This document shows positions 1 through 62,587 of a stretch of DNA of 64,000 nucleotides, piece by piece (the first letter of the stretch is position 1; each line of letters starts with the position of its first letter). Origin of the DNA: Erysipelothrix sp. HDW6C. Lineage in GTDB: Bacteria; Bacillota_I; Bacilli_A; Erysipelotrichales; Erysipelotrichaceae. The notes under the pieces were generated by a model. The model saw only the letters and a list, made by a program, of their open reading frames with translations. It was not told the DNA's origin and searched no databases. The position numbers and the translations under genes were made by a program. The stretch spans positions 434,001-498,000 of the forward strand of contig NZ_CP049861.1 in NCBI RefSeq assembly GCF_011299615.1, in the 5' to 3' direction.

Positions 1-2454
1 GAATACACTCAAAATGAAATATCACAAACACTACCGATCTATGTATATGATAGTCTTGATAAGCTAAAAAATATTGGATTGAACGCTGTTTCTTTTGATG
101 CAACGATCAGTGATTTTCAAGATAAAAAGACAATTCTAAACCGTGGTCATGTCGTTATTTATGATATTGCCACCCGACAAAATATTACCAACCATACAGA
201 GGTAACTCTGAAACGCGATACGTACACAAGCGGGCTTAACCGTTCTGTTATTTTTGAAGTGCCTCAAACTACGATCTCTGCTAATATCAGTGTTGATATT
301 TATGACACAATGGTTGGTGATTTGGGAATCATGTCAAAGGCATTTAAAACGCAACAAAAAGATATCAAGTCAGTGGATGATTTGATTACACATGCCAGTG
401 TTTCCGTTTATAGAAATGGAGAGAATATTACAGATAGATTGACCTACTCAGCAAAAATCCCTCTTGAAACAGGACTCAATCAAACCATACCAATGACAAT
501 AAATGAACAGAATGAAGTGTTTAATTTGTACGCAGATGTTTTTGATGTCGCCGATTCGCAAAAGGGGATTTCTGCACATGATTTTAATGCAATCATTGGT
601 GAAGTAAAAACCGCTGATGATATTCTCCGTTTATCAGATGCGAAATCATTTCAATTGAGTGAGAACAGTCAGGCCTGTAAAGTAACGGTTGATAATAGCG
701 CATCACTCAATCCTGGTATAAATACAATTCGGTTGAGATCGTGTGATCTTACACTGGATATTCAGGCAGGGCTCTTTAATACGATTGATCCACAACAGAA
801 TAGGGGGATTACTTATGAAAGTGCATATTTAAGCGATTCTGACCTTAAGAACAAAACATTAGTATCGGGTTCCTTCGCAGTCAAAACGTATGCATTAAAT
901 ACTGGTATTGAAACTTCAAATACATATGATTTCATACTTCCACAAGGGGTCGGAATTAATCAAGAGACGCAACTAGTTATTAATGGGAAATTGCAGAATA
1001 TCTTTATGATGACACATATTTACACAGCACTTGACCGTGAAAATAGTATCGGAGTAATCGGAAACGATATTGTAGCAAAAGTTGAGGATGTTACAAGCAA
1101 AGCTGGTATAGTTGATCGTATGAATCTGAGTGCGTACATCTTACCAAGCAATGAAACCATATTGACACGAAAAATCCGCATCGATACGGACAAATTGGAT
1201 GTTGGATTAAACCAAAAAATAAATATAACTATTGCAGGATACGATACAATGTTGGCAATAAATGCAGATGTTTACAATGATATTAATGCCAATCAGGGAT
1301 TGTTAGCGCATGGGTTCAATGCAAGTGTAGATGAAGTAGACAATGTCGCTAAGATACAGGCAAAAGCACGAGCAGATGTGTATGATTTGGCGACAAAAAA
1401 ACCCATGAAATTGAATCTCTCGGTAACAGAGCTCAAGACTAAGGGAAACAATCAGCAAGTTACAATATCAAACGGACTACTTCATACAACCGTCACAGCG
1501 AATCTCTTTGATGTATACGATGAAGCAAATCAAGAAGGCATGAATGCGCAGCCGATTTCGCTTATTCTTGGCCATGTTAACAGCTACACGTTAAAATATT
1601 TAAGTGAGGTTGAAGCGTGGGATACACAAACGATGACACAAATTGCGTCACGAAAGATAACAATGGTATCAAATATACCTCAAGCAGTTGGATCGATGCA
1701 AACACGTTTTGCAACAGAACGAGGAACACAAATTAATGTCCCAACAACAATTTACGACAATCGAATTTCAATTGCGGCCAACAATATTGCGATTACATTT
1801 GATGAGGCTTATTCACTTGATGCTGAGAACGTTCTAAAACTTATGAACGCAACCGCTGTTGACAACTATTCGGGCGCTGATGCGACATCCGTAACGCTGG
1901 TTGGGTGGGAGCTAATCAATCAAAGCAAGATACCCAAGGCTCAACCCATACGATTAAGTATCGAAGCCCGATACGAACGCTATACATCACAAATTAATGT
2001 TTACGTTTACGTATTTGATGCACTTAATGAGGAGCGAACCATTGCACTGAATTCGAATGATGGTGTAACGACACTTGATGTTTCATCGCTAAGTGATGAA
2101 GAAATTCTTGAACTTGTGCGAGCCGAAGCATGGGACTTGAGTGATATCAACAATCAAACTATTACAACAGTCGAAGATATTGATGTCATCAAAACAGATG
2201 CAACCCTCGGTATGATTCGATTGCAAGCACGGGGTGCAATACGTAATAATGTTATCGTATATGATACAAACCATAGTAATCCTGAATTGAAATCGAGTGA
2301 TGTCTATTTTACATTGGATGAGTTTAGATCCGCTGTTGAAGACGGAAGTTTAAATTCAAAGTTTGTGTCAAAAGCGACATTGCGTTTGGTTGGTGAACAA
2401 ATGATTCATGATATCATTATTGACCCATGGGTACGCGGGTATGTTGAAAAATAG
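1..2454 (+). CDS. Giant repetitive surface protein, 3' part (5' end outside window)
   Basis: The frame is open from base 1, so this is the C-terminal 817 residues of a longer protein and the TTG at 79 is not a real start. It consists of about ten tandem repeats of roughly 80 residues. Each has a core such as DVFD, DVYN, NLFDVYD or YVFD, followed by a loop and an (A)-H-x-F-x-x-x-(I/V)-x-E-V strand, as in AHDFNAIIGEV and AHGFNASVDEV. The composition is beta-rich, without Cys clusters. The C-terminus (WVRGYVEK) has no LPxTG motif, membrane helix or charged tail, so attachment must come from the unseen N-terminus or be non-covalent. The same repeat occurs as a single copy in the neighbouring membrane protein at 2482-3099. 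Likely an extracellular stalk or adhesin; its ligand is unknown. The stop codon lies inside a bidirectional terminator shared with the convergent gene. Confidence 0.85.
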   Translation, partial: EYTQNEISQTLPIYVYDSLDKLKNIGLNAVSFDATISDFQDKKTILNRGHVVIYDIATRQNITNHTEVTLKRDTYTSGLNRSVIFEVPQTTISANISVDIYDTMVGDLGIMSKAFKTQQKDIKSVDDLITHASVSVYRNGENITDRLTYSAKIPLETGLNQTIPMTINEQNEVFNLYADVFDVADSQKGISAHDFNAIIGEVKTADDILRLSDAKSFQLSENSQACKVTVDNSASLNPGINTIRLRSCDLTLDIQAGLFNTIDPQQNRGITYESAYLSDSDLKNKTLVSGSFAVKTYALNTGIETSNTYDFILPQGVGINQETQLVINGKLQNIFMMTHIYTALDRENSIGVIGNDIVAKVEDVTSKAGIVDRMNLSAYILPSNETILTRKIRIDTDKLDVGLNQKINITIAGYDTMLAINADVYNDINANQGLLAHGFNASVDEVDNVAKIQAKARADVYDLATKKPMKLNLSVTELKTKGNNQQVTISNGLLHTTVTANLFDVYDEANQEGMNAQPISLILGHVNSYTLKYLSEVEAWDTQTMTQIASRKITMVSNIPQAVGSMQTRFATERGTQINVPTTIYDNRISIAANNIAITFDEAYSLDAENVLKLMNATAVDNYSGADATSVTLVGWELINQSKIPKAQPIRLSIEARYERYTSQINVYVYVFDALNEERTIALNSNDGVTTLDVSSLSDEEILELVRAEAWDLSDINNQTITTVEDIDVIKTDATLGMIRLQARGAIRNNVIVYDTNHSNPELKSSDVYFTLDEFRSAVEDGSLNSKFVSKATLRLVGEQMIHDIIIDPWVRGYVEK

Positions 2455-2492
2455 CGATTGAAATCTACATGACTTCAATCGCTATTTTCTTT
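2447..2492. terminator. Bidirectional terminator between convergent genes
   Basis: An inverted repeat of about 15 bp (AAAATAGCGATTGAA / TTCAATCGCTATTTT) with an 11-nt loop and T-rich flanks on both strands. It contains the stop codon of the giant gene (2454) and that of the minus-strand gene (2482). Confidence 0.9.
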
Positions 2493-3099
2493 TAAACAAT
2501 ACTTCATTTGCTTGTCGTACTTTTCGTGAAAAGCCAGTATGTGCAATCATCAAGAGAACGAGTGGAAACAAGAAAACAAGGAGGATGGAGAGCTGAACAT
2601 ACCTGTTGGAAATGTTCTTAAACTCTTGAGGACGAAAATCGAGGGTATCCCATGTAATAGGGGTATCTTCTTTTTCAATGGCACGAATCGTGATGGACAG
2701 TTGTGAATCGGTTGCCAGTGTAATCGCATAGCTTGATGTAGACTCGCGATTGATTGTCATTTGACTGATGGGAATGCGTGCTCCAGTCTCTACATTCCAT
2801 GCCTTTGCTTTCGACTTACGGATGATTGCATCAATTCCCATTGAACTGACTTCGCCGATACCTACTTGAAAATCATGGGCATCAATGGCTTCGTTTGCAA
2901 TGATAATAGTATTATCCGAAGTGATAACTGTTTTTACCAAAGTTGAGACGAGTTCACCATCGCTGTTGGTTGTAGAGACTTTTACATAATAGGTTCCGGG
3001 TTCTTGAATATCCGTGATATTGCCTTCCCAAACTTCGATATCAGCATGAATGGGTAAGAAAGAAGCGAGGAGAAGTAAAATAACCATCAAACGTTTCAT
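2482..3099 (-). CDS. Two-component-associated membrane protein with one surface-repeat domain
   Basis: 205 residues. A signal peptide (about 1-19, ending near HAD) is followed by a short beta region with EPGTYYVKV, then a domain at about 70-150 with AHDFQVGIGEV and AKAWNVETG, a membrane helix at about 168-190 and a short basic cytoplasmic tail (RKVRQANEVLFKRK). The middle domain is the same repeat seen many times in the giant protein ending at 2454. Paralogues with the same plan and a related tail lie at 57526-58179 and 59680-60396, each also directly after a histidine kinase. The start overlaps the kinase stop by 4 nt (ATGA), so translation is coupled. No catalytic residues are visible. I infer an accessory subunit that links extracellular stalk material to the kinase. 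The exact family name is unknown to me. Confidence 0.8.
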   Translation of the reverse strand: MKRLMVILLLLASFLPIHADIEVWEGNITDIQEPGTYYVKVSTTNSDGELVSTLVKTVITSDNTIIIANEAIDAHDFQVGIGEVSSMGIDAIIRKSKAKAWNVETGARIPISQMTINRESTSSYAITLATDSQLSITIRAIEKEDTPITWDTLDFRPQEFKNISNRYVQLSILLVFLFPLVLLMIAHTGFSRKVRQANEVLFKRK

Positions 3100-4457
3100 A
3101 TTGAAATTCCTTGAGGGAATGAAATAATTGTAGAGACTTTCGCTTCGTGAACATCAAGACTGTAAGTTCCATCTAACATGCGTGTCAAATCTTTAATCAG
3201 GAACAAGCCATTTCCACTGCTATAGCGGTTATCGTTATTTCCAATGACATTAAAAATCTGTTCAGATTGCTGCATTCGCAATATATTTTCCGGACTGCTC
3301 TCATTTCTGTAACACATGGTAACATAGCCGTCTTCTTCGTAGAGTGTTATGGAAACCGTTGAATCGGTAATTGCATATTGGAGAAGATTAGAGATTAAGT
3401 TATGGATGAGTAGTTGAAATGTCACAACACTTGCGTTAATTAGAACTTCTGAATCATAGTCCAATTCCATATTAATTCGCTTTAGGCGAAACTCCTTTGA
3501 GAAATATTGCAGTATTGAATCTGTAACTGCCGAGAGATTAAAGACCTCACGATTTTCCACAATAGCATCATAATCAGTGGCGAGTAACTTTAGCACATCG
3601 TTAATGCGATTCATAAGGGACTGATCGTGGAGTATGTTTTTTGTAAGTACATGGATTGCTTCAGGATTATCAGAAATATCATCCAATGCGATTTCGTTTT
3701 TCATAATCGCATAATGAATGGGAGTTTTCAAATCATGAATGAAGGTTCGCGCGACAGTCATACTATTTTGAAGACGTTGCTCGCTAACCTTAAGTTCAAC
3801 TTCTAATTCAGTATATTTTTGTGATACTGCATCGAAGTTGTCAGTTAATTGAGATCCAATTTGATGGAGATCCTCAAGAATTACGTCACCTTCCGAGGGT
3901 AGCGCATCGAATTGATAATGTTTCAAACGGTTTACGGATTCGCGAATTCGTTGAAGCGATGGAACAAACGTATTGAACATAATAAAGATTCCAACCATCA
4001 ATAAAGCAACGGCACCAACCAACAAGTATAACTGATTGAGAAGGAACGGTTTAAAGTATGCATCATCTGGAATTTGGTGAACCTTCAAAAGAATCTGATA
4101 GTCAATACCAGATGAAGTAAGTGTTCCTGATGATGACATCAGAACAGATTTTGGGTTGGTTGAGCGATTAAAGTCGGCAATGGTTGTAAAGGGTACAGAA
4201 GTAAATACCGGTGTATCACCATTGAGAATCACTAAATCAATATTGTTATTTGCTACAAGGTCCTTGTAAGCAGCAATATCATTTGGATCGGCGAGTACAA
4301 TAGAAGATATCTCATTTTCGATATTTTCAACACTGCTAAGTTCATGATTACGGTAGTCTGAGGGGAAACTGGATATTCGAATGATGAAGACTGCCGCAAT
4401 CATGAGATATGAAACATAAATCCCAAAGCGAAGAAAGGTAAGTCTATTCTTGTTCAT
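3096..4457 (-). CDS. Sensor histidine kinase, surface-protein cassette 1
   Basis: 453 residues from the ATG at 4457, which lies inside the last codons of the regulator gene (14-nt overlap); a longer start at 4472 is possible. Two membrane helices (about 10-28 and 142-163) flank an extracellular sensor of about 110 residues that ends with the juxtamembrane motif QIPDDAY. A linker follows, then the phospho-acceptor FIHDLKTPI (His about 241), an N-box (HNLISNLLQYA) and a G2 box (SGNGLFLIKDL). Where most kinases have a DxGxG G1 box this protein has RNESS, a feature shared by its three paralogues in the window. It should phosphorylate the adjacent regulator in response to a surface cue. The ligand is unknown. 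The order regulator, kinase, repeat-bearing membrane protein is conserved in two other cassettes here. Confidence 0.9.
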   Translation of the reverse strand: MNKNRLTFLRFGIYVSYLMIAAVFIIRISSFPSDYRNHELSSVENIENEISSIVLADPNDIAAYKDLVANNNIDLVILNGDTPVFTSVPFTTIADFNRSTNPKSVLMSSSGTLTSSGIDYQILLKVHQIPDDAYFKPFLLNQLYLLVGAVALLMVGIFIMFNTFVPSLQRIRESVNRLKHYQFDALPSEGDVILEDLHQIGSQLTDNFDAVSQKYTELEVELKVSEQRLQNSMTVARTFIHDLKTPIHYAIMKNEIALDDISDNPEAIHVLTKNILHDQSLMNRINDVLKLLATDYDAIVENREVFNLSAVTDSILQYFSKEFRLKRINMELDYDSEVLINASVVTFQLLIHNLISNLLQYAITDSTVSITLYEEDGYVTMCYRNESSPENILRMQQSEQIFNVIGNNDNRYSSGNGLFLIKDLTRMLDGTYSLDVHEAKVSTIISFPQGISI

Positions 4458-5118
4458 TCCACTTGTATCCAATACCGCGGACTGTAAAGATTGAGAAGAT
4501 ATCTAACTTCGCTCTTAAATTACGGATATGGACATCTACCTTCCGTTCATCTTCCAAAGAATCATTTCCCCATACATTTTGAATGATTTCATCGCGTGAC
4601 ATCACAATATTTTTGTTCTCTAAGAAAAACTGTACAATTGCAAATTCAATTGGCGTAAGGTCTTGAGGTGTATCATCTTTCAGTACAGTACGTGCGCGTA
4701 CATTCATTTCTAAATTTTCGACAGAAGATGTAAGGATTATGTCGCGTTGCGAATCGTTTTGTGACTCAAGAAGTTGTGCAATATAGATAAGAATTAATTT
4801 GATACTCTTATTTTTCTCAAGATACATGTCGACATTTAAAGTAACTGATTCAAGTTCCGAATCGTCACTTGGTTTTGCCGTAAGAATCACCGTTTTGATA
4901 CGAGGGTTCATTTTTTTTGCGGTTGCTGCCAAGCGAATGCCGTTTAAGACGTCCAAGTGTAAATCAGAGATAAGGAGGTCGTATTTATTTTGCGCCAAAT
5001 ACTCGAGCCCTTGAGCCGCGCTGTGAGCTGCATCAACTGAATAGCCTTCTAAGAGCAGTCTTTCCTTTAAAAAATTTGCATAGTCGCGATCGTCTTCAAT
5101 CATCATAATTTTGAACAT
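4444..5118 (-). CDS. OmpR-family response regulator, cassette 1
   Basis: 224 residues. The receiver domain has acidic residues at 9-10 and the phospho-acceptor Asp52 (LISDLHLD); the C-terminal winged helix starts around residue 130 and ends in the typical VRGIGYKWNEQE. The usual Lys-Pro motif of the receiver is changed to LEKNKS, as in the other three cassette regulators (LEKSKS). The start is set by GGAGG about 10 nt upstream. It is the first gene of a minus-strand operon with kinase and membrane protein. It probably binds direct repeats upstream of surface-protein genes; repeats matching this idea lie in its own upstream region (5195-5300). Confidence 0.92.
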   Translation of the reverse strand: MFKIMMIEDDRDYANFLKERLLLEGYSVDAAHSAAQGLEYLAQNKYDLLISDLHLDVLNGIRLAATAKKMNPRIKTVILTAKPSDDSELESVTLNVDMYLEKNKSIKLILIYIAQLLESQNDSQRDIILTSSVENLEMNVRARTVLKDDTPQDLTPIEFAIVQFFLENKNIVMSRDEIIQNVWGNDSLEDERKVDVHIRNLRAKLDIFSIFTVRGIGYKWNEQE

Positions 5119-5471
5119 TCTGATACCTCCGTTAATTATCTTAATAATACTCTAATTTTGAGCACATAAGTCCGAGAAGTACTGTATTGATTGATTTATG
5201 TCATAAAACGCGAAAAGCACACATAACGTTTGCATAAGTATGAAGATTTATGCATAAAACACGATAAGATTTAAAGGTGAGTGTATGCATAAAACCGCAT
5301 AAACAGATAACATTTGTGTTAACGTTGCGTATGTTTTATTGAATTAATAAGTGTAAAAATAGAGAATAAATCGTTGGAATCAATGTTCAAAACAAAAATT
5401 AATGGATTGATAACAAGACAACATGTTTGTAGTGTTATGTCGGTAGAATAAATAAGAGGAGATATGCGCAA
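5119..5471. other. Divergent intergenic region with repeated TATG(N)CATAAAAC elements
   Basis: 353 bp between the minus-strand regulator operon and the plus-strand TPR gene, with no credible ORF. It holds the repeat cluster at 5195-5300 and AT-rich sequence. A TATTAT hexamer on the minus strand (5149-5144) could be the -10 of the regulator operon, but no convincing -35 accompanies it. Confidence 0.6.
5195..5300 (+). repeat. Cluster of TATG(T)CATAAAAC direct repeats, candidate regulator sites
   Basis: Three related copies: TTTATGTCATAAAACGCG (from 5195), TTTATGCATAAAACACG (from 5247) and TGTATGCATAAAACCGC (from 5283). A partial copy, TTTGCATAAG, lies near 5229. The core TTATGCATAA is palindromic. 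The 10-mer TTTATGTCAT of the first copy recurs exactly at 37185, upstream of a giant surface-protein gene. Confidence 0.55.
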
Positions 5472-6161: not shown

Positions 6162-6203
6162 AAACGCACAAACTCAAATAACTGAGGATGTGCGTTTGTT
6201 TTT
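6161..6203. terminator. Bidirectional terminator
   Basis: Stem AAACGCACA / TGTGCGTTT with an inner CTCA / TGAG pairing, followed by GTTTTTATT. It sits between the convergent TPR gene and the lipoprotein gene. Confidence 0.85.
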
Positions 6204-30719: not shown

Positions 30720-31769
<1,050 letters not shown>

Positions 31770-31771
31770 TT

Positions 31772-33267: not shown

Positions 33268-33283
<16 letters not shown>
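31772..33283 (+). CDS. F1-type ATPase alpha subunit
   Basis: 503 residues, full length. The N-terminal beta-barrel (to about 95) is followed by the nucleotide domain with P-loop GNRQTGKT (165-172), VFDDLSKHADTYRTISLL, and RPPGREAYPGDIFYIHS (275-291), then ESVSRVGANAQ with the arginine finger Arg361, and the C-terminal helical bundle. All features needed to support catalysis at the beta sites are present. The extreme N-terminus differs from the usual delta-binding helix, consistent with a different stalk. The end overlaps the gamma gene by 16 nt. Confidence 0.95.
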
Positions 33284-37028
<3,745 letters not shown>

Positions 37029-37184: not shown

Positions 37185-37231
37185 TTTATGTCATCAGAAA
37201 ATAGGTTTATGACATTCGAACAGAATATCAA
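37185..37231 (+). promoter_or_regulatory. Paired direct repeats and -10 of the first 2506-residue gene
   Basis: TTTATGTCAT (37185-37194) and TTTATGACAT (37206-37215), 21 bp start to start, then 10 bp to a -10-like TATCAA (37226-37231), with no -35. The same layout stands at 47133-47179. This geometry fits activation by an OmpR-type regulator. Confidence 0.7.
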
Positions 37232-37307: not shown

Positions 37308-40300
37308 ATGAAAAAACTATTTACAAGTTTACTCGCTATGATTATAGCGGTAGCCTCATTCGCAACATCAGGAGTCGGAGTGACCTCTGTTTTTGCTGAT
37401 GGAAACTCTTCGAGTGATAATAATTTGTCAATATCCATTCCAAATTACGACGAAAATGTAGGTTGGACAGCTGGTGAAATTTATGAACTATTTATTAGTG
37501 CGAAATTTACTGATAATCTCAATGTTAAAAAGCAAATTGAAATTACACTACCCGAGGGGATTCGTTTTGAAAAGATTCCTATGGCCAAAACTGAAGATTT
37601 TGTTGACCCAAAGGTTAACACTATTGCCACATGGTCACAATATATTAAAGATGTACAACATCCGACAAGAAATCCAGAGTATCAATCTTATAATAACAAG
37701 TTAGTTTATACGATTGATTCTTCAATGAAGTCGTTAAAATTTGATACAATTTCTGTATCTGTTGATATGACGCTATATTATGGACCAAAGCTATTTAAAG
37801 AGTCTGAGGGGAATGGAATCTCCGTCAAATTGATTGAAAATGATATTCTAGATTCCAAAACATCTATAGATGTTAAGGCAGTTGGAAATTCAATAATGAA
37901 CTTTTCAAGAGAAACAACTGTCGTGATGGAAGCTTTTCCTGAAGACGGGAGAAAATACAACTCTGATTTATATAGTGTTTACCGTGCTGGTCATGGGTAT
38001 GGACAACCATTTTATCTAAAAGGTGCAGAAATTGAAACGCATTATCCAGATCAAATGAAAGTATTCTCACGATATGGAGATCCTGCATATATTGGTGATT
38101 CAATCATTGATGAAGAAAATAAGATTGTGAAAACGACATACAATATTCCATATCACTTTGGTATCCCTGGAAAAAACATGTACCCATATCGGGGTGGGAT
38201 GTTAACGTATGAAATTCCTTCGAGTGCAACACCATCACAAAAAGTTGATGGCAAGTATGTTCCATATGTCGCTCCAGTTACTACTGGTAGAGTTATCGCG
38301 TATGATGGAACAGTAATCGAGGTCGGAAATAGATACCAAATGAAACATGTTGTTTTGGATGTCAATGACCCAGAAGCAAACAATGAACGAATAGAAATTA
38401 GAGCGGATAATCGATACTATAGTAGCGGCAAGGAAGCCGCTGATGGGAATGATTATAAAATTCTTGCATCAACATTTTCATTAATAAATGGTGCGAGTCA
38501 AACTAAGAAAAAGCAATGGATTGAATATATTGTAGGTGATGGTTTTCTAGCTGACGAAGTATCCCTTCCGGTAATGCCGACTCAACCAAAACCATCAATT
38601 GTATACTACAGAACCAATTTTGATGACGTAAATGCACCGCTCCGCGAAGCTACCGGGTCACAGATAATGAAAAGTTTGAATGCATTTGGTACTTATGGCT
38701 ATGGTGTTAACCGAAAATCGGTAGGATTACAAAACAATGAATATATTACATATGTAAAGGCATATGTTGGAGATATCGGAACGGTAAGTGATCCAACTTT
38801 TTATACAGGTAGAACGACCCTTTACGCTTTTGGAAAAATGGTTGATGATGAAAATGTAAAGACTGCAACAATGACATTACGCACATGGTCAGATAACGGC
38901 TCTGGGGGTGCGGCTGCGAACTCTGAAAATATAAAAACTGCTCAAGTAATCAGAGAGAACATTGGTGCAGAAAATTTGCAGGCCCGCTCGTCAGTCAATG
39001 CGAATGGAACGATTATTGCTGGTGGGAAAAATGGCTCTGAGACTATTGAGCCGATGTGGGTTACTACTCACCTCGCAAACAATGGTTACAATTATAGTAA
39101 TCGTGCAAACATTGTTCAAAATCCAACTATTTATGTTCGAATTCCAAAGTATACAAATGCTGCGAAAACGGATATTAGCGGACTTCAATTGGTAAATAAT
39201 ATGATTACTGTATCTCAAAAGATGAATGACAAATTAGAGTATACTGTAAGTGCACCATATTATAGTAGTGTAGACGAATCTACAATCTATAAAATTACTA
39301 CAAAAAATGCCAACTATGGCTATTACTTTGGCGAAATGTCAACATTTGGACTTGCAACTGAAAAATACGCACAGCCAATTGCAATTAATTTCCAATTGGA
39401 AGCATCTATTGTTGGTTCAGGAAACTATGACTTAGCGCAAATGATTTTCTTCGAGATGCCAAACGGAAATGCTTATTATCCAGTGAATGGACAAATAGGC
39501 AATATGATGGATACTCTAGGAATCAGAGAAAGCGGTTCGGTTCGATCCATATCAAGAGTCAATTCTGTTCCTATTAGTGTAATATCGCAAAAAGCATTGC
39601 TTGTTGATACATACTTCAAGAAACAAGGTAGCGAAATTAGAGAGCCTGCATATAACCCTACGCTCGGGAATGCCGTTGATTTCACTGCGGGTTCTGAATC
39701 GGGATATTATGTAGATATCATGAATAACTCCGGTGAAGCGATGACAGAGCTTACAACCTATGTTCCGTCTCCAAAAACAGGGATTGATTTTGGGGATCTC
39801 ATTCATGGTGAGGGTGGCGAAACCTTCAACTGGGATATGACCATCATTCCTGTCTACGAAACCGAAGTGTATGTTCGTAATGATGCAGGCGTTATCGTGA
39901 AACTGGAAGATGGCCCAGAAAAACAAGCCATCGAGAATAAATATAAAGTATCGTATTCCAACACGGCACGTGATGAGAACTTCGCCGATGCAACCTTCAA
40001 TCAATCCTCACCAAACGGTGAAACAACCATGATTCGTATCAAGAATGTGGGTGGTATGGATGATGGGGAGCGTATTGTCTATAAGTTTACGTATCTTATT
40101 GCGGAAACGAGTCAAACCATTAAAGATCATCCCGAAAAACTTACCACTGTGAATGCATTCCGTCCTTACTATGAATTTGCTTCCTCAACCGCATCGGGAT
40201 CCCAAGTGGGAACCCTCGCAGCGGGTCGTCTTGAAATGGCAGAGATTAGTGGAAAACTCTTCTTAGATAAAAACCAAAACGGTATCTTTGATGCTGGCGA

Positions 40301-43300
40301 TGAAGTCTTAGACCAAGTAAACATCAAAGCCCAAGCGAAGAATAAAGATACAGGCATCTTTGATGGTGATATCTCTGAGGGCATGACTGATGAGAATGGT
40401 CATTATAAACTCGATGTTGCCGTGGGTGAGTATCGTGTTGATTTCAATGAATTACTCTCCATGGATGACTATGAAGACTATCAATACTTTACAATTCCAA
40501 AACAAGGCAGTGATGATGCTGTCGACTCGGATGTTGCGTACATCACCAAAGATGACTTGATTGCCGGTACGGTTGTGGTGGACTCACTCGATGATGTGCA
40601 TGCAAGTGCCATCTCTGCCGGTGTCCTCGACTATCAAGGACAAGTCAAAGCAGATAGCCTTGAGGATGTGGAACTCCTTGCACCACTCAGTGGTCCGCAA
40701 TCCTTACCGCAAACACAAAGTGTTGAGTTTACCCTCACAAACATCCTTAATATGGATCTGATTGATCAAGATTCCTTAGTATGGACAAGCTCTGATAATA
40801 CCGTTGCCACAGTCGCTCAAAACAGTGAGAAACTGTTTGGTGGTGATATCACGGCGAAGAAAGTCGGTGTCACGACTATCACTGTCACATTCAAGGATGT
40901 CTTTGGAAATGACCAAACACTCAGTGTCAATGTCAATGTGAATCCAAATACAGCACCTGAATTTACCTTCCCAACAGCCGGTAAAACGGTAACTTTCGAA
41001 GCGAAAGCCAATACAGAAGCAAACAAAATTCAAGCATGGACGGATGTCTTTGCAGGACTTGAAGCACATGACGCCGAAGATGGAGAAATGATCGATAAGA
41101 TTGCTTACTCTGTCTTACCTGAAAACTTTGATGTCAGTGTCGCTGGAACTACAGAAATCATCATCAGTGTTACCGATAGTGATGGAAACAAAACTCAAGA
41201 TACCTTAACGGTTATCGTAACGGATACGACAGCCCCAGACCTTGCAATCACAAACAACCATTTATACATCCTTCAAACCGATGTAAATGAAGTTGTGGAA
41301 ACATCGTGGGTCAAAGAACACGGAGTCATTAGCTACAGTGATATTGTCACTGCCGAAGAGGACCTAACAGTAACCTATACCGGATTATCCAGTGTGAATA
41401 CAACGACACCGGGTGATACACAATTCAGTGTCCGTGTTGTGGATGAAGCAGGGAATGATGTTGAGAAAACTGTCACGGTCACGATTGTACCGAAGATGAG
41501 TGCCAACGCAAGCATTACCCTTATTCCAAGTGAAGTCGCAGGTGCAGATTGGAAGACGTTATCTGGAGTGGTTGCTTACAAAGTATCCCCAACCAGCAGT
41601 GTTCCTTATACCGTGTTTGATATCGATGCCACAAGCGTCTTGACAACACCCGGAACCTACACCTTAACCATCACAACCGAAGATGGCCAAACAACGACAG
41701 TATCTGTAGTCGTCGTGGGTGCCAGTGTTGAAAACTATGATCTTTATGTCAACTTAGATGATGTGAAAGATGAAGCATGGTTCATTACGGAAGCAGGCAT
41801 TGTCGCATCTCCAGTCAGTGGTTCTGTAACGAACCTTGATTTAAGTGGTGTTGATTTCACAACAGCCGGTGATTATGACATCACCATCTCAGTAAGCTAT
41901 GATGGCAAAACAGGAACCCTTGATCAAACACTCAAGGTCCATGTCCTCCCTTACTTAAGCGCGAAAGCCGTTGTGATGGATGCCCAAGGACTTACAGCAG
42001 AAAATCTTGCTCAGAAAATCTTAACCGCATCCCAAGCAGTCGCGTATGATACCAGCGATGCAACACAGAAAGTGGCCTACCCACTGACGCTTGAAGCAGG
42101 GTATACAGTGGACACCAGTGGCGTTACCATTGCGAATGGTGAGTACACAGCCGTGATTACAGCTCCCAATGGAGAAACAGTCAGTGTCAGTGTGAAGATT
42201 ACGGAAGATGCCACCATCAGTGTGGATTCCCCACTGTACTCACGTACCGGAACGGTTCGTGATATGGACTGGATTAAGCATGAATCAAACATGAGTTGGA
42301 CCCCTTCAAACCGTGTACCAACGATTAATGGAACGGTTGATTATACAACCGCAGGAACCTACAACCTCTCTGCAGCTATTACCAATGGTACAGATACAGA
42401 CAGTGCAGCGTTCTCTGTGATTATCATGGATAACATGAAACCAACACTCGAAAACTTAGTCATCAATGCGACTGAAGTATCAACACTCAACTTGGTTGAG
42501 CGTGTCGGTATTAAAGCGTACGATCTAAGCAATCCACTTCAAGCGGTTGAAACAGCGGTGAGTGTGGGTGGTGAAACCATTCAACCTGTTGAAGGAACCT
42601 ACAATGTAATCTTCACAGCTGCTGACAATACACCGGTCAATTATACCGTTACGGTAGTTGAAACGGTTACCATCACAGCCGACCATAGCGACCTTTATGT
42701 TCGTATGGGAAATGTGAAAGACACTGCATGGATCGCAAGTGAAGCAGGACTTACAATCACACCGTCAACCTTAACCCCAACCTTCACAGGAAGTGTGGAC
42801 TATGGTGTTGCCGGAGATTATGAAGTAGTGTTACGTGTTGCGAAGTCGGATACTGACTTTGCGGAAACAACCATTACCGTTCATGTCGTTGCACCAATCA
42901 GTGGTCATGATATTGTGGTGAATGCCACAGATGTAGCGGGACTTGATCTCTCTGCACTGGTACAACGTACTGAAACCACATCATGGATTGTGGATGATGC
43001 CCATACAGCCCATGTCGCCTTGGCGAATGAGTATACCTTGGGAGGCGAAACCATTCTGAATACAGAAGGGGATTATGCTATTACCTTAAGTACATCACAA
43101 GAAACAAAGAACATCAATGTAACTGTAATTGAAGATTTAGAACTGAATGTGACTCATGAGAAACTGTATGTGAAACAAGGTGATGCGAAAGATGCATCAT
43201 GGATTGAAACAACAGCGGGAATTACGTCTGGTCCATTAAGTACCGTCTTGTCGATTGATGAGAGTGCTGTGGATTATGCAACTGCAGGAATCTATGATGT

Positions 43301-44828
43301 CGTGATTACGGCAGCACGTCCTGACAACAGTGCACAACTCACAGAAACGATCAAACTTGAAGTTGTCCCAGCAATGAGTGGAACACAAACCCTCAGTGTG
43401 GATATTGAAGACTTGAAGACGATGGATAAGGATGCAATCCTCGCAATGGTGAGTCCATCGGCATGGAATGTAGCGGATGGTATCTCAAAGACAGTCGTGA
43501 CATCCTTTACAATTACCGAAACGATTAACGAAGTGGTTGGAACCCAAACACTCACCGTCGTCGCTGACAATGGGGAAACACTCAGTGTAACCCTTACGGT
43601 TACAGAGATTGTCCCAGACCTTGAACTCAGTGTGACCAATACAACCCTTTATGTAAAAGAAGGCGATGTGATTGATAACACATGGATTCAAGACAAGGCT
43701 GTGGTATCATACAGTCCAAGCAACGCTGTGATCAGTGTCGTTGGCTCTGTTGATACAGATACACCCGGTAACCAAAGTGTTACAATCAAAGCAACATTCC
43801 GTGATCAAACACAAACAAGACCCGTTCAAGTGAGTGTGATGCCGAAGATGGGCGCGATGAATACAAATGTCAGTTTGTCATTGAGTGAGCTTAGTGATGT
43901 TAGGGTTTTAGAACTTGTGGCACCTATAGCATGGAATACAAACAACCCATTGAATGCTACTGAAGTCACAGGATTCACCGTTGAGAACATGCCATCGACA
44001 TCGGGAACATTCAATAACGTTGTGATTAAGGCTGCCAATGGCGAGTCTGTCACAGTGAGTGTTACCGTAGTCAATGACGTAGTGGCAACAACGGACTATT
44101 CAATTATTGCCGATAGTGTGCGTATCAATATTCATGACTTAAAGAATGCGGACTTCATTGCATTATCCAATGCAACCGGTCTAAAGACAGTCAAGAATAC
44201 CGATGGCGATGTTCTTTATACCGAAGCAGCACCAGTCTCTGTGAAGAGTGCATTACCTGAAACAGTCGGTACATACACGATGACACTTCAAGCAGGAACG
44301 ATAACGAAAGATATTCAAGTGGTTGTCTACGATACAGGATTCTTAGAAATCCAAGCGAAAGATGTCAGCATGAAGTGGTCTGAATTTAGTTCCATGAGCG
44401 AAGCAGAACTGGAAGCAGAACTCTTGAAACGCAGTGGAGCGAAAGTTGTGAATACGACCACAGGTGAAGAGTACGGAAGCGATGCGATTGAAGTGAAACA
44501 TAACTTGAAGAGCGTGGTAACAGGACCTGGAACCTATGAAGTATCTTTGAACTATTCGTTGAACCAAAACAATTTGGGTGTGCGAACAAAATACACACGA
44601 AGCAATGAAAGTGTTGTGGAGTTTTCATCAAAAATCACCTTAACGGTTGATAATGATACTGAAAACCCAGCAGTCCCTGTGAATCCAGGAAAGAATGATG
44701 GAACAAACAATCCATTACTTCCAGGAACAGGAATGGCACCCGTTGCACCAATTTATGCATCAACGATTGCGTTACTCGGAGTCTTGATTCTTGCAGTCAA
44801 GAAACTACGCGAGGAACTACGTAAGTAA
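37308..44828 (+). CDS. LPGTG-anchored giant surface protein A
   Basis: 2506 residues. A signal peptide (about 1-31) is followed by a large beta-rich N-terminal region (about 32-755), a conserved linker region, an SdrD-B/Cna-B-like domain near 975-1080 (ISGKLFLDKNQNGIFDAGDE), an Ig-like domain near 1130-1220 (SSDNTVATV), an HYR-like domain near 1225-1305, and then alternating repeats of two types. One carries the pattern LYV-x-x-x-D(V/A)-x-D-x-x-WI; the other resembles the repeat of the two-component membrane proteins (ILAMVSPSAWNVADG). The C-terminus has LPGTG (2471-2475), a hydrophobic helix and KKLREELRK, a sortase signal. No sortase gene is in the window. From about residue 756 on it is almost identical to protein B at 47251. 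Likely a cell-wall adhesin or fibre with a variable head. Start by AGGAGGAAATT. Confidence 0.93.
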   Translation: MKKLFTSLLAMIIAVASFATSGVGVTSVFADGNSSSDNNLSISIPNYDENVGWTAGEIYELFISAKFTDNLNVKKQIEITLPEGIRFEKIPMAKTEDFVDPKVNTIATWSQYIKDVQHPTRNPEYQSYNNKLVYTIDSSMKSLKFDTISVSVDMTLYYGPKLFKESEGNGISVKLIENDILDSKTSIDVKAVGNSIMNFSRETTVVMEAFPEDGRKYNSDLYSVYRAGHGYGQPFYLKGAEIETHYPDQMKVFSRYGDPAYIGDSIIDEENKIVKTTYNIPYHFGIPGKNMYPYRGGMLTYEIPSSATPSQKVDGKYVPYVAPVTTGRVIAYDGTVIEVGNRYQMKHVVLDVNDPEANNERIEIRADNRYYSSGKEAADGNDYKILASTFSLINGASQTKKKQWIEYIVGDGFLADEVSLPVMPTQPKPSIVYYRTNFDDVNAPLREATGSQIMKSLNAFGTYGYGVNRKSVGLQNNEYITYVKAYVGDIGTVSDPTFYTGRTTLYAFGKMVDDENVKTATMTLRTWSDNGSGGAAANSENIKTAQVIRENIGAENLQARSSVNANGTIIAGGKNGSETIEPMWVTTHLANNGYNYSNRANIVQNPTIYVRIPKYTNAAKTDISGLQLVNNMITVSQKMNDKLEYTVSAPYYSSVDESTIYKITTKNANYGYYFGEMSTFGLATEKYAQPIAINFQLEASIVGSGNYDLAQMIFFEMPNGNAYYPVNGQIGNMMDTLGIRESGSVRSISRVNSVPISVISQKALLVDTYFKKQGSEIREPAYNPTLGNAVDFTAGSESGYYVDIMNNSGEAMTELTTYVPSPKTGIDFGDLIHGEGGETFNWDMTIIPVYETEVYVRNDAGVIVKLEDGPEKQAIENKYKVSYSNTARDENFADATFNQSSPNGETTMIRIKNVGGMDDGERIVYKFTYLIAETSQTIKDHPEKLTTVNAFRPYYEFASSTASGSQVGTLAAGRLEMAEISGKLFLDKNQNGIFDAGDEVLDQVNIKAQAKNKDTGIFDGDISEGMTDENGHYKLDVAVGEYRVDFNELLSMDDYEDYQYFTIPKQGSDDAVDSDVAYITKDDLIAGTVVVDSLDDVHASAISAGVLDYQGQVKADSLEDVELLAPLSGPQSLPQTQSVEFTLTNILNMDLIDQDSLVWTSSDNTVATVAQNSEKLFGGDITAKKVGVTTITVTFKDVFGNDQTLSVNVNVNPNTAPEFTFPTAGKTVTFEAKANTEANKIQAWTDVFAGLEAHDAEDGEMIDKIAYSVLPENFDVSVAGTTEIIISVTDSDGNKTQDTLTVIVTDTTAPDLAITNNHLYILQTDVNEVVETSWVKEHGVISYSDIVTAEEDLTVTYTGLSSVNTTTPGDTQFSVRVVDEAGNDVEKTVTVTIVPKMSANASITLIPSEVAGADWKTLSGVVAYKVSPTSSVPYTVFDIDATSVLTTPGTYTLTITTEDGQTTTVSVVVVGASVENYDLYVNLDDVKDEAWFITEAGIVASPVSGSVTNLDLSGVDFTTAGDYDITISVSYDGKTGTLDQTLKVHVLPYLSAKAVVMDAQGLTAENLAQKILTASQAVAYDTSDATQKVAYPLTLEAGYTVDTSGVTIANGEYTAVITAPNGETVSVSVKITEDATISVDSPLYSRTGTVRDMDWIKHESNMSWTPSNRVPTINGTVDYTTAGTYNLSAAITNGTDTDSAAFSVIIMDNMKPTLENLVINATEVSTLNLVERVGIKAYDLSNPLQAVETAVSVGGETIQPVEGTYNVIFTAADNTPVNYTVTVVETVTITADHSDLYVRMGNVKDTAWIASEAGLTITPSTLTPTFTGSVDYGVAGDYEVVLRVAKSDTDFAETTITVHVVAPISGHDIVVNATDVAGLDLSALVQRTETTSWIVDDAHTAHVALANEYTLGGETILNTEGDYAITLSTSQETKNINVTVIEDLELNVTHEKLYVKQGDAKDASWIETTAGITSGPLSTVLSIDESAVDYATAGIYDVVITAARPDNSAQLTETIKLEVVPAMSGTQTLSVDIEDLKTMDKDAILAMVSPSAWNVADGISKTVVTSFTITETINEVVGTQTLTVVADNGETLSVTLTVTEIVPDLELSVTNTTLYVKEGDVIDNTWIQDKAVVSYSPSNAVISVVGSVDTDTPGNQSVTIKATFRDQTQTRPVQVSVMPKMGAMNTNVSLSLSELSDVRVLELVAPIAWNTNNPLNATEVTGFTVENMPSTSGTFNNVVIKAANGESVTVSVTVVNDVVATTDYSIIADSVRINIHDLKNADFIALSNATGLKTVKNTDGDVLYTEAAPVSVKSALPETVGTYTMTLQAGTITKDIQVVVYDTGFLEIQAKDVSMKWSEFSSMSEAELEAELLKRSGAKVVNTTTGEEYGSDAIEVKHNLKSVVTGPGTYEVSLNYSLNQNNLGVRTKYTRSNESVVEFSSKITLTVDNDTENPAVPVNPGKNDGTNNPLLPGTGMAPVAPIYASTIALLGVLILAVKKLREELRK

Positions 44829-44981: not shown

Positions 44982-45656
44982 ATGAACAAAATATTACTCG
45001 TAGAAGATAACCCCGAATACCTAAATCTACTTGAACGTATTCTCAAAAGAAATGGTTATGATGTAGACATTGCGGATAACCCCATAAAAGGTCTCGAGTT
45101 ATTGGCAAAGCATAAATATGATTTATTAATATCTGATTTATACCTCGAAGCCATTGATGGCATTCAATTAATTACCGCTGCAAAAAACATCGACGGTGAT
45201 ATCAAAACAATCATTCTTACTGGAAATCCAGCAGAAGCAACAGAAATGGCAGCTGTAGAAAGTAATGTCGATCTTTACTTAGAAAAAAGCAAAAGTATGA
45301 ATCTTGTACTAAAATACATTGAGCAAGTTCTTAAGAACAAAGTTGGATCAGCTGCAAGAGAAATGATTCTGGAATCAAAGCAACAAAAACTAATCGTAAA
45401 TCTCAAAACACATGAGGTGCATCGCGATGGAATGCTAATTGATTTAACACCGATTGAATTCCACATACTGCAATTGTTTCTTGAGCGAAAAAATGAAAAA
45501 CTTACACGAGAAGAAATTATCGAAGCAGTTTGGGGAAACGAAGATGCTGTGCCTCGAATCATTGATGTTCATATTAAGAACCTTCGTGACAAACTGAATG
45601 TATTTTCTATTGTAACGGTACGTGGCTATGGCTACAAATGGAATGAAAAAGAATAA
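44982..45656 (+). CDS. OmpR-family response regulator, cassette 2
   Basis: 224 residues. Receiver with EDN at 8-10 and phospho-acceptor Asp52 (ISDLYLE); the receiver motif that is usually Lys-Pro reads LEKSKSM. The C-terminal winged helix ends VRGYGYKWNEKE. It is very close to the cassette 3 regulator. A TATAAT hexamer at 44913-44918 could be the -10, but no -35 is at proper distance. It lies between the two near-identical giant genes, which carry matching direct repeats in their promoters. Confidence 0.93.
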   Translation: MNKILLVEDNPEYLNLLERILKRNGYDVDIADNPIKGLELLAKHKYDLLISDLYLEAIDGIQLITAAKNIDGDIKTIILTGNPAEATEMAAVESNVDLYLEKSKSMNLVLKYIEQVLKNKVGSAAREMILESKQQKLIVNLKTHEVHRDGMLIDLTPIEFHILQLFLERKNEKLTREEIIEAVWGNEDAVPRIIDVHIKNLRDKLNVFSIVTVRGYGYKWNEKE

Positions 45657-47025
45657 TAAACTTAAAATTTTAAGTGTACTTATAGCAACTGCATATTGCA
45701 TCATCGCGGTTGTCTTTTTCATGAATATGATTAATATTGATGAAGACTTTGCGAAACGAGAGCAGTCTTATATTAGAGATGTCGAAGCAAAGATTGAAAA
45801 TGCACTGTCGCAAGATGTAGATACTATCCCGGATGAACTCAAGGATTTAACACGAGCGATTCCTCTGGAAATAACGGTTGATGATGGGAAAAAAGTTATC
45901 TTTACAACCGTTCCGTTTGAAATTGGTGATGAACTGTATGGTCAAACTAACAAACTCATTACGCTGATCGAATCTAAGGGTGAGTTTTTAGGCGATGAGA
46001 TTGACTTCAATGTGCGCTATGTAATTTATAAAATGCCAGAGGGACCATTCTATCGTGACTTCTTCTACAAACAAATCGCTTTAATTTCAATTGCATTTGG
46101 AATCTTGAGTGTAACAACCATTGGTCTTTCACAGATATTTGTGAAACCATTACGGAAGATCCGTGAATCAATTGAAAAAGTCAGTGATTATAAATTTGAT
46201 GAATTACCGAAAAGTGATGATGCCATCAACAAAGAATTTGGCGATCTTGCTCAGAAACTAGAAAGTGGAATTCATGCTGTTTCCCTACAACATACTGAAC
46301 TGGAAACAGAATTACAAATTCAAAGAGAACGCCTCAATAACTCACTGAGTGTCTCGCGCTCATTTATACATGATTTCAAAACACCCCTTCATCAATTGAT
46401 CTTAGAGAATGATTTCTTTATTTCAAAACTTGATGAAGAAAACGATGAAGTCCGTGAGCTTGTACAAATCAATAACGACGTCATTAACCGACTCATGACA
46501 AATCTCAACGATGTGCTTGCAATCATGAAGGACGACATTCATACACGAATTCAAGATAAAGAGTTGGTGTCACTAGAGGAGGTTATCTTCGAAACTGTTA
46601 ATATCTTTACACCTACTGTTCGACTCAACAATTTGATTATGGATGTGTCCGTGGATGAAGTTGATGATATTGAGATTAATAAACCAACCCTTCGCTTGTT
46701 GATACATAACCTTGTATCAAATATGGTTCAGTATGCGCAAGAAGGGACAGAACTCTTAATCACAGTCGAAAATTCGGGTGAGAATGTAATGTTAATTTTT
46801 GAGAACGAAAGTAGTGAAGAGAACTCGAAAGCAATGAAAGCGAGTGAGCAAATCTTTAATGCCGTAAGTGATGACTACAAAAAATCACACAAGTATAGCA
46901 GTGGTAATGGCTTATTCTTAATTAAAGACCTAACATCAATTCTTTCAGGCACTTATAATTTTGCAATAAATAACGAGGTGGTGAAGATTACGATAGTCGT
47001 TCCCAAACACCCTGCAGAGTTATAA
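45643..47025 (+). CDS. Sensor histidine kinase, cassette 2
   Basis: 460 residues from the ATG at 45643, which lies in the last codons of the regulator (14-nt overlap); an in-frame ATG at 45622 is also possible. Two membrane helices (about 10-29 and 145-166) flank a sensor of about 110 residues ending in YKMPEGPFY. Phospho-acceptor FIHDFKTPL (His243), N-box HNLVSNMVQYA, ENESS in place of the G1 box, and G2 SGNGLFLIKDL. Unlike cassettes 1, 3 and 4 it is not followed by the small repeat-bearing membrane protein; the next gene is giant surface protein B. Confidence 0.92.
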   Translation: MKKNNKLKILSVLIATAYCIIAVVFFMNMINIDEDFAKREQSYIRDVEAKIENALSQDVDTIPDELKDLTRAIPLEITVDDGKKVIFTTVPFEIGDELYGQTNKLITLIESKGEFLGDEIDFNVRYVIYKMPEGPFYRDFFYKQIALISIAFGILSVTTIGLSQIFVKPLRKIRESIEKVSDYKFDELPKSDDAINKEFGDLAQKLESGIHAVSLQHTELETELQIQRERLNNSLSVSRSFIHDFKTPLHQLILENDFFISKLDEENDEVRELVQINNDVINRLMTNLNDVLAIMKDDIHTRIQDKELVSLEEVIFETVNIFTPTVRLNNLIMDVSVDEVDDIEINKPTLRLLIHNLVSNMVQYAQEGTELLITVENSGENVMLIFENESSEENSKAMKASEQIFNAVSDDYKKSHKYSSGNGLFLIKDLTSILSGTYNFAINNEVVKITIVVPKHPAEL

Positions 47026-47132: not shown

Positions 47133-47179
47133 TTAATGTCGGCAAATCGTTTTTTCATGACATGGAACAATATTATTAA
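47133..47179 (+). promoter_or_regulatory. Paired direct repeats and -10 of the second 2506-residue gene
   Basis: TTAATGTCGG (47133-47142) and TTCATGACAT (47154-47163), 21 bp start to start, then 10 bp to TATTAA (47174-47179). Spacing is identical to that at 37185-37231, and the alignment runs without gaps into GGTGATA. Confidence 0.68.
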
Positions 47180-47250: not shown

Positions 47251-50200
47251 ATGAAAAAACTAATAACAAGCTTATTATCCTTAATGCTCGTTGTGACATC
47301 GTTCGCAATGCCATTTAGTGCAACCTATGCAAACGAAAATAATAAGCAAGATGGAAATCTCAGTGTTGCGATTCCATCATATAATCCAACAACGGGATGG
47401 GCACCCGGTGTAGTAAATGAAATGAAAATCAGTGCTGCTTTTACCGATTCTTCAAATATCGGTAAAAAGGTTAGAATTACGTTACCCGAAGGGCTGCGTT
47501 TTGAAAAGATACCTGTAGCAACTCCTAATGATATTGTAGACAAAGAAGTCGATACTTTAGCGACATGGTCTGGTTATATTGACAGTATGACCCACCCAGT
47601 AAGACACCCAGAGTACAATTCGTACAATGGTGTTTTAGAGTACACAATTGAATCATCGATTTCATCGTTAAAGATGGACAGCATTTCAATTTCAGTTGAT
47701 ATGACTGTCTATTATGGTGCTAAAGAATTCAAAGCATCGGAAGGCAATGGAATCAAAGTTGAGCTACTTGAAGATGAGACGGTCACATCAAAAATTGATA
47801 TGGATGTAAGCAGTAAAACAAGTACTGTTCTAAGATTATACACAGATGGAAAGCAATTAAAAGGGCTTCCAGAAGATGGCGTAAAATACACAAGTTATGC
47901 TCCATACGTCTATCGTGATGGTGCGGGATATGGTCAAGCTTTTTACTTAAAAAAAGGATATTTTGAAACGCCTTATCCAGAACAAATGAAGATAACTGGT
48001 GTACATGGAAGCCCATTACAAGCAACAGTTGAAAATGATGAAACAAATCGTATTTTGAAATATACATATAATAAACCAATGGTAAATGGCATCCCAGGTC
48101 ATACATATTTTGCGTATACTGGAGCATCATTTGTCATGGAAATTCCATCAAGTGCAACACCTTCAATTAAAGGAACTGATGGAAAATATATTCCATATAA
48201 AGCTGCAGCACCAATTACTGCACAGGTTGAGGCGTACGACGGAAAGTTAATCGATATCACAACAAATAAATATGTTGTTGAGCATACAGTTCTTGATCCA
48301 AGCGATCCGGAAGTTAACAATGAACGTCTTGAATTGTCCACAGTTGTTCGTAATTTCAGCGTTGGAAAACTTCCAGCAAACGGCGAAGAGTACAAAATAA
48401 CCGCAGATACATTCCGTTTTGTTAATGGTGCGAAGCCGAAAGTTAACCAATGGATGGAGTATACCATTAATGAGAACTTCCAAGTTGATGAAATTTCATT
48501 CCCAGTAAGTTTTGGTCAGCCAAAACCAAAAGAATTCTACTACAAGACGAATTTTGATGCCGAAGGCGCTCCATTGAGAAAAGCAACTTCTACGCAAATC
48601 GTTACAACAAGAGCAAATGGCTCAATCCAAGGATATGGTATTACGCGTGACACTGTTGCCTTACAAAACAATGAATACATTGTTTATGCGAAAGTGTTTG
48701 TTGGTAATATTGGCGTTCATAGCGGTGGAGAAGCGAATTTTGTTACAGCTTCAACGCTATATGCATTTGGGAAATTAGTGGATGATCCCACAATCACTTC
48801 AGCACCTGTATCATTAAGAACATGGTCAGATGACGGGAATGGTGGGGTACTCGCTAATTCAGAAAACTATAAAGAATCGTATATCCGACGTGACGAGAAC
48901 GGACTTGAAAACCTTAACTCAGATATTACTAAAGGAAATAACGGTTCAGTAATTGCAGGGGGAATGGTTGGTTCTGAAAAAGTTGATCCTCTTGATGTAA
49001 CTGTGAACTTAAACTCGCGTAATTACTACAACTACAGTGGTGGAGCCTTAATTATTCAAAATCCGACCATGTATATTCGTGTGCCGAAGTATACAGATGC
49101 AGGCATGACAGATGTGAGTGGTTTGAGTTTGATTGAAAACAGTATTAAAGTTACCCAAGCAAACAACAATGATCTTGAATATGAAGTAAGTGGTCCAACT
49201 TACAGTAGTGTAGATGGTTCCGCAATCTATAAAGTAACTACTAAGAATGCAAACTATGGATTCTATTTTGGGAAACGTGCAGCAGGAACTTCAAAAGCGC
49301 CTTATGCACTCAACAGCATTCAACTACATTACAAACTTGAAGCATCTATTATTGGTTCTGGAACGTATGACTATCGTGATATGGTGTTTTTTGAAATGAC
49401 AGATGGTCGTGCATTTACACCAGGGAGTGCCCAAGCGGGTAATGTTCCGGATCCTTTCGATGTTCGTGGCGATGGTAAAGCAGGTTCTATATCACGCGTT
49501 AATACTGCTTCTCTAAGTGTAATATCGCAAAAAGCCTTGCTGATTGATACATACTTTAAGAAACAAGGCAGTGATTATCGTGAACCTGCATACAACCCGA
49601 CACTCGGAAATGCCGTTGATTTCACTGCGGGTTCCGAAGCCGGTTACTTCGTGGATATCATGAATAACTCTGGGGAGGCGATGACCGAGCTTACGACCTA
49701 TGTCCCTTCTCCAAAAACAGGCATTGATTTTGGGGATCTCATTCATGGTGAGGGTGGCGAAACCTTCAACTGGGATATGACCATCATTCCTGTCTACGAA
49801 ACCGAAGTGTATGTTCGTAATGATGCAGGCGTTATCGTGAAACTGGAAGATGGCCCAGAAAAACAAGCCATTGAGAATAAATATAAAGTTTCCTATTCCA
49901 ACACGGCACGTGATGAGAACTTCGCCGAGGCAACCTTTGATCAATCCTCGCCCAATGGTGAAACAACCATGATTCGCATTAAGAATGTGGGTGGTATGGA
50001 TGATGGGGAACGTATTGTCTACAAGTTTACGTATCTTATTGCGGAAACAAGTCAAACAATTAAAGATCATCCCGAAAAACTCACGACTGTGAATGCCTTC
50101 CGTCCGTACTATAAGTTCAAGTCTGCAGCGGCTTCGGGTTCTAAAGCAGGAACCCTTGCAGCAGGTCGTCTTGAAATGGCAGAGATTAGTGGAAAACTCT

Positions 50201-55466: not shown

Positions 55467-55489
55467 TCTGAGCATTGAGAGGAAAGACA

Positions 55490-59671: not shown

Positions 59672-59682
59672 CAATGCAGTTA
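59656..59682 (-). terminator. Terminator of minus-strand cassette 4
   Basis: Perfect stem ACTGCATTG-TAG-CAATGCAGT (59660-59680). Only the minus strand has the T-run after it (TTTTCTTTT). It contains the stop codons of both convergent genes. Confidence 0.8.
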
Positions 59683-62476: not shown

Positions 62477-62587
62477 CTCATAATAGTAGCAGTTATGAAA
62501 ATGTCTTGTATGTGTTTAAAAATGTAACTAAAGGGTTTTATTAAGAAGACTTATGTAAAATGAAGAGTCAAAATATGCACTTGTACC

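Follow-up and report, generated by a model that had tools for sequence, protein, structure and literature searches.

The 64,000-nucleotide stretch of the Erysipelothrix sp. HDW6C genome analysed here (the window; the genome is a single contig of 2.36 Mb) encodes giant surface proteins and, directly downstream of histidine kinase genes, small membrane proteins (MPs) that carry the same kind of module as the surface proteins. The genus includes the agent of swine erysipelas. Little is known of how Gram-positive bacteria keep the supply of giant surface proteins in step with their secretion and with anchoring in the wall. With a kinase partner that is built from an adhesin-type module and tied to adhesins by location and by a candidate operator, this question becomes testable in one genus. 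We consider it somewhat more probable than its opposite that an expanded family of two-component systems in Erysipelothrix serves the cell surface and that the MP is its third component.

The window contains three MP open frames: MP1 (205 aa; 2482..3099, minus strand), MP2 (217 aa; 57526..58179, plus strand) and MP3 (242 aa; 59680..60408, minus strand). The open frame of a fourth, MP4 (L010:8499-9170), lies outside the window at 1.853 Mb of the same genome, and seven more come from related genomes, which gives an alignment of 11 MPs from seven genomes. Inspection by eye divides each of them into signal peptide, ectodomain, a single transmembrane segment and a tail of some 20 residues. For MP1, the AlphaFold model (mean pLDDT 79.4; six MPs in the input alignment) predicts helices at residues 2-13 and, as one long helix, 157-204, a beta-hairpin with strands 35-44 and 50-59, and an Ig-like unit at 64-143 with short helices at 83-96. 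MP1 is divided, on the minus strand, into a signal peptide, the N-terminal hairpin (residues 35-59; 2923..2997), an Ig-like module common to the giants' repeats and delimited by profile and structure (residues 68-146; 2662..2898), a transmembrane helix and a cytosolic tail, in which the MP alignment marks the conserved RQANEVLF (residues 195-202; 2494..2517). The hairpin resembles the last two PKD/Ig strands, and the region matches PKD domains of solved collagenases at E values of 4e-4 to 0.002; in view of this alignment with the last PKD strands, the ectodomain resembles one Ig unit preceded by half of another. The N-terminal hairpins of 10 of the 11 MPs align weakly to the C-terminal half of the module profile, and only one of the 11 outscores all 550 shuffles against that profile, so that descent of the hairpin from half a module is suggestive only.

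A preliminary description had presented the three window proteins as signal peptide, one stalk-type repeat, membrane helix and a tail with K/R-x-A-E/N-x-x-L-Y/F. The open frames are real and the signal peptide and transmembrane segment are visible by eye, but the ectodomain exceeds one repeat by the preceding hairpin. The tail motif is present in all three, but its literal form is absent from the other eight of the 11 MPs; a looser pattern taken from the alignment, [KRE]-x-[AV]-x-x-x-[LI]-[YFL], describes nine of the 11. The ectodomain sequence is poorly conserved between paralogs, with MP1 sharing 23-30 % identity with the other MPs. No Pfam or NCBIfam family scores above its cut-off on the MPs, no relatives of MP1 were found in a scan of named genomes, and MP families were not found in 27 genomes examined outside the genus, where the matches are PotA-type or short.

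All 11 MP genes lie directly downstream of a kinase gene, and all these kinases belong to one family. On the minus strand of the window, OmpR-type response regulator 1 (4444..5118) and histidine kinase 1 (3096..4472), which overlaps the start of MP1 by 4 bases, precede MP1, and response regulator 3 (61761..62438) and histidine kinase 3 (60386..61792), which overlaps the start of MP3, precede MP3. On the plus strand, response regulator 2 (55475..56164) and histidine kinase 2 (56130..57524) precede MP2, and a further regulator (44982..45656) and kinase (45622..47025) of the same families stand without an MP of their own. The kinase family has 13 members in seven of 13 Erysipelothrix genomes, and 11 of these have an MP; the exceptions are the kinase at 45622 and a more distant one at genome position 236284. 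Kinase and MP are both present in seven of the genomes and both absent from six, and the 14 genes of the regulator family (E <= 1e-75) are confined to the same seven. Since these same members went into the alignments, their high scores arise partly by construction, and it is the absences that provide the test. The scan with the kinase alignment matches E. tonsillarum DSM 14972, Erysipelothrix sp. HDW6A and E. inopinata DSM 15511. An MP-family regulator also follows a window-like giant elsewhere in the HDW6C genome (L011:15943-16620; genome position 560943), with no family kinase alongside.

Receiver and winged-helix DNA-binding domains score above the Pfam cut-off in regulators 1 and 3, and D52, T80 and K102 are invariant in the eight rows of the regulator alignment. 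The kinases have the H-box F[IV]HD[LF]K[TS]P in nine of 10 rows, together with an N-box and S[SG]G[NVQ]G motifs; Pfam HATPase_c falls just below its cut-off, and NCBIfam kinase models match partially and below cut-off. Judged by these motifs and domains, the system qualifies as a two-component one of histidine kinase and OmpR/PhoB regulator. The MP gene is always beside the kinase gene and is inherited with it, as expected of a three-component system with an accessory membrane protein. The proteins were thus rightly called kinase-linked, and the genetic link between MP, kinase and surface proteins is tight.

The surface proteins of the window include a secreted protein (about 910 aa, some five modules; 1..2454, plus strand; its gene starts before the window), in which no LPXTG was seen, and, also on the plus strand, two LPGTG-ended giants of 2506 aa (37308..44828, with module repeats in its C-terminal half, and 47251..54771). 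The N-terminus of another giant, with many modules and an LPATG end in a frame of 4293 codons, occupies 62898..64000 (plus strand). The giants have, by eye, a signal peptide and a C-terminal sorting signal; Gram_pos_anchor exceeds its cut-off on the giant of L043 and LPXTG_anchor on that of L051. They share the signal peptide, the long tandem-domain stalk and the sorting signal with LPXTG fibrillar adhesins and Periscope Proteins as outlined in PMC8201768 and PMC8286594, and differ in that several are linked to dedicated kinase-MP systems. For the giant of G002 and G009, comparison with the CwpA named in PMC7083082 yields only rough agreement in length.

Ten of the 11 MP operons adjoin a surface-protein gene, and the eleventh, in E. 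inopinata, lies about 5 kb from a giant of 4231 codons with about 20 module matches. The MP1 operon converges with the gene of the 910-aa protein, the MP2 operon lies downstream of the giant at 47251 with one small gene between, and the MP3 operon is divergent from the 4293-codon giant. The operons of MP4 and G010b converge with giants of 2.1-2.2 kaa, the regulator being on the giant's strand; in G002, G004, G006 and G009 operon and giant diverge (the giant is broken in G006, and small frames intervene in G009), and the operon of G010a is downstream of its giant. In nine of the 11 cases the neighbouring surface protein clearly carries the module. The link to the module is weaker for the giants next to MP4 and G010b: most of their repeats are Ig-like ones of another sort (InlK_D3 type in the giant that was scanned), and these giants did not enter the module profile before its third round. 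The broken giant of G006 consists of many short frames beside the MP operon (L046:1-6330), and a second, unbroken one is found elsewhere in that genome (L050); both have the direct-repeat box described below.

To compare the MPs with the surface proteins, we used a hidden Markov model of 83 modules from 15 surface proteins, grown from the repeats of one giant outward through further surface proteins, with the MPs excluded. This profile matches all 11 MPs at 10.4-40.7 bits, above all 561 controls (550 shuffled and 11 reversed MPs; best 4.0 bits); the best other natural frame reaches 5.7 bits, except for six pieces of the broken giant in G006. MP1 scores 33.2 bits (E 3.8e-9), MP2 17.1 bits (4e-4), MP3 21.7 bits (1.5e-5) and MP4 40.7 bits (1.7e-11). 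In a search of whole genomes with a separate 15-row alignment of surface modules, MP4 (E 3.7e-10) and MP1 (1.9e-9) are also found. The first, narrow seed, made from the repeats of one giant of another species, was not significant for the window proteins (best-domain E 0.044 for MP1, 0.56 for MP2 and 0.15 for MP3), and a single-sequence search of the giants with MP1 gives an E of only about 0.002, which is why profiles were used. The prediction that a profile of the surface repeats would score the three window MPs is therefore confirmed above controls, and the MP repeat is the module of the surface proteins. As for the strings quoted earlier in support of this identity, SAWNVADG does occur in the two 2506-aa giants, but AHDFNAIIGEV comes from the secreted protein of about 910 aa and not from a giant.

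The 15-row alignment detects strong module-bearing surface proteins in all seven MP genomes. Four of the six MP-less genomes have none and two have weak ones (G005, E 1.4e-5; G007, 9e-7); the broader profile takes in the giants of G005, a genome with neither kinase nor MP.

The predicted folds agree with the profile. A repeat of the giant at 47251 (53797-54027; AlphaFold pLDDT 88.9) was modelled separately from MP1, and Rib domains are the first Foldseek match of both models, at middling E values of 0.040 (MP1) and 0.045 (giant repeat). VIA-align ranks internalin K first for both, again with middling scores (MP1, Z 7.7, rmsd 2.6, 71 residues aligned; giant repeat, Z 6.7, rmsd 2.8, 66 aligned). 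The two models retrieve the same Ig-like structures, and the difference in fold that would have spoken against a common module is not seen. Scores of this size indicate an Ig-like stalk type and nothing further. Although the Ig-like stalk domains of Rib and internalin K are the nearest solved folds, no Pfam or NCBIfam stalk model reaches its curated cut-off on the MPs or on proteins with the module as main repeat, Rib and InlK_D3 included (rib_alpha on one giant, 17.8 bits against a cut-off of 35.25).

The module is not confined to the cell surface. A search of 60 related genomes with MP1 led to other genera, in which the matching open frames, some 530-560 aa long, are PotA, the ATPase of a spermidine/putrescine ABC transporter (one was scanned). 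PotA is cytosolic. In all 22 loci examined (including L018, L022, L029 and L041), it holds two module copies in its C-terminal TOBE region, and a pair of adhesin-type Ig-like modules thus sits inside PotA ATPases of many genera of the order. The PotA of the window genome (769084-770055; 370 codons) has no such insert, and its alignment to the 544-aa query stops at residue 331. For ten of the 11 MP modules (all but that of MP4), a PotA module from another genus outscores every giant module, and in tree distance all 11 lie nearer to PotA modules than to those of giants, although the tree is weak with modules of 74 aa. After rerooting, the smallest clade with all 11 MPs also includes, at a support of 0.34, 14 giant modules, among them the AHDFNAII module of the 910-aa protein and the wall-proximal modules of two giants. 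The best giant match of an MP is never its neighbour (none of the nine MPs whose neighbour's modules were compared; G006, with its neighbour in pieces, and G012, whose neighbour's repeats are absent from the set, were left out). Recent copying of MPs from neighbouring giants was rejected on these nearest-match and tree comparisons, the tree being weak, and the view of the MPs as miniature copies of the stalk repeat gives way to the higher PotA scores in 10 of 11. Judged from sequence, the module has long been in wide use as a building block in this order. Since it is also present in a cytosolic ABC ATPase, it is no dedicated part for recognizing stalks.

A module so generic that a cytosolic protein contains it may be only a structural spacer or folding platform in the MP; the kinase would then sense with its own extracellular region, and the MP would contribute nothing but its membrane helix or would chaperone or stabilize the kinase. 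This would suit an ectodomain that diverges while the tail pattern persists in nine of 11 MPs, and the close kinase that has no MP of its own. However, the ectodomain is kept in all 11 MPs and would be superfluous in a mere helix partner, and we regard this explanation as unlikely, though less so than a common ligand or like-with-like contact.

Rib/InlK-type modules act as spacers in stalks. RsgI-type sensors carry an extracellular module that is also found in the exported proteins they control. Those of Clostridium thermocellum (PMC12203970, PMC4711584) resemble the MPs in being membrane sensors with a module of exported proteins, but they are anti-sigma factors whereas the MPs are partners of kinases; no anti-sigma domain of Pfam or NCBIfam matches MP1-MP4, and the cytosolic part of an MP has about 20 aa. 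By analogy with these sensors, whose modules also occur in the enzymes under their control, the MP module and the modules of the giants might bind one ligand, external or in the wall, which the MP would report. A module common to sensor and target, and several paralogous kinase-MP pairs beside different surface proteins, would fit. The role of such modules as stalk spacers, the short ectodomain, which should lie within the wall, and its low conservation between paralogs argue against a common ligand, and we hold this to be quite improbable.

Comparison of the promoters before several giants revealed a direct repeat, TTYATGACAT twice at 21-bp spacing, which we describe as a new candidate operator. 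It lies on the plus strand before the giants at 37308 (37185..37215; <=3 mismatches) and 47251 (47133..47163; 4 mismatches), and on the minus strand before response regulator 1 (5177..5207; score 16 of 20, 4 mismatches) and, weakly, response regulator 3 (62501..62531; 15 of 20). We scanned 229 upstream regions of 350 bp each, which include orthologs and are not independent. At a spacing of 21, 18 of them score at least 16; other spacings from 15 to 29 give 0-4 each. The 18 include six giants and other LPXTG or exported proteins, and also the regulator promoters of four MP operons (regulator 1, G002, G004 and G009), with the regulator of G006 at 15. Boxless promoters are those of regulator 2 and the regulator at 44982 (12 each), the 910-aa protein (11) and the 4293-codon giant (14). 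The consensus was drawn from five giants (37308, 47251, L011, G010a and G006), and the remaining box promoters played no part in it. A gene of 516-519 aa that converges with the MP operon in four genomes (L044, L045, L046 and L053) also has a box, about 98 bp upstream, with scores of 15-16.

At <=3 mismatches, the window genome has 24 sites against one for the reversed pattern, and the 13 genomes together have 121 against 37. Single half-sites exceed expectation only marginally across the window (37 vs 24.7). By eye and as a raw count, 11 of the 22 own-genome sites other than those of two giants precede genes with a signal peptide or lipobox, three precede other membrane proteins, three are inside genes of the opposite strand and five have no clear exported gene. 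Specificity of the box for the MP system was considered and rejected, since the box also occurs in genomes without the system (12 vs 4 for the control in G005; 10 vs 3 in G003) and before many other exported-protein genes; for the same reason another regulator may read it. The box appears to mark a regulon of exported proteins, which it would predict by itself.

The preliminary description had proposed like-with-like contact. In this reading, the MP module, perhaps with its unpaired hairpin, would touch the modules of a giant in transit or waiting at the membrane before anchoring by sortase, and would report the supply of stalks to the kinase. The common module and fold, the neighbouring genes, the position of the modules toward the wall-anchored end of the giants and the truncated Ig-type hairpin at the MP N-terminus are all consistent with such contact. 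We nevertheless find it highly doubtful, because PotA modules of other genera resemble the MP modules more than those of the giants do, because in none of the nine comparable cases did the neighbour give the best giant match, and because the module also occurs in a cytosolic ATPase. In its most specific form, the Ig module and unpaired hairpin would dock on the repeats of a giant still at the membrane and not yet wall-anchored; homotypic contact would thus let the cell count the stalks that it has yet to anchor, with the kinase adjusting supply via the box. This is the least probable of the explanations.

The three-component reading, that the MP serves its kinase as a membrane-proximal co-sensor, accounts best for these observations. 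YycH and YycI are membrane accessory proteins that tune WalRK, an OmpR-type two-component system, and are encoded with it. The MP would be anchored in the membrane, exposing some one and a half Ig units immediately outside it, and would modulate the kinase via the transmembrane helix and the conserved short tail, much as YycH/YycI act on WalK. The regulator would in turn control how strongly its own operon and the surface protein are expressed, with the 21-bp direct-repeat box as its probable site of action. What is sensed would most likely be the condition of exported surface proteins or of the inner zone of the wall. The common module would reflect re-use of the lineage's Ig-like building block rather than self-recognition. 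Counting against the three-component reading are the two family kinases without an MP, the promoters without a box, the presence of the box in genomes that lack the system, the module-bearing surface proteins of G005 in a genome without kinase or MP, and the mostly InlK_D3-type or similar repeats of the giants beside MP4 and G010b. The likeness to YycH/YycI (PMC7355866) lies in being membrane accessory proteins of an OmpR-type two-component system; the MPs differ in that there is one per kinase, with an adhesin-type Ig-like ectodomain, and in their expansion beside surface-protein genes. No YycH/YycI Pfam model matches MP1-MP3 at E <= 1 or MP4 at E <= 0.1. Literature on Erysipelothrix two-component systems and surface proteins and on kinase accessory proteins, mostly at the level of abstracts, contains no description of the MPs or the box, and the Erysipelothrix genome paper (PMC9637936) gives, in the part consulted, two-component systems with predicted functions only.

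Several minor features accompany the giants. Those at 37308-44828, 47251-54771 and L011:8256-15830 are, by eye, near-identical over much of the C-terminal half while their N-termini differ, which would fit a recent exchange or duplication. In L012, in the giant at 47251-54771 and in L051, the repeat that directly precedes the sorting signal is a longer module of a distinct kind, and two of these last repeats fall near the MP modules in the weak tree. A small lipoprotein-like gene without a Pfam match (54888-55466) lies between the giant at 47251 and regulator 2 and is similar in look to 6202-6636. Within the surface-protein locus and next to the giants, at 30723-35867, Pfam identifies a set of F1-ATPase-like genes (OSCP/delta, alpha/beta twice, gamma and epsilon).
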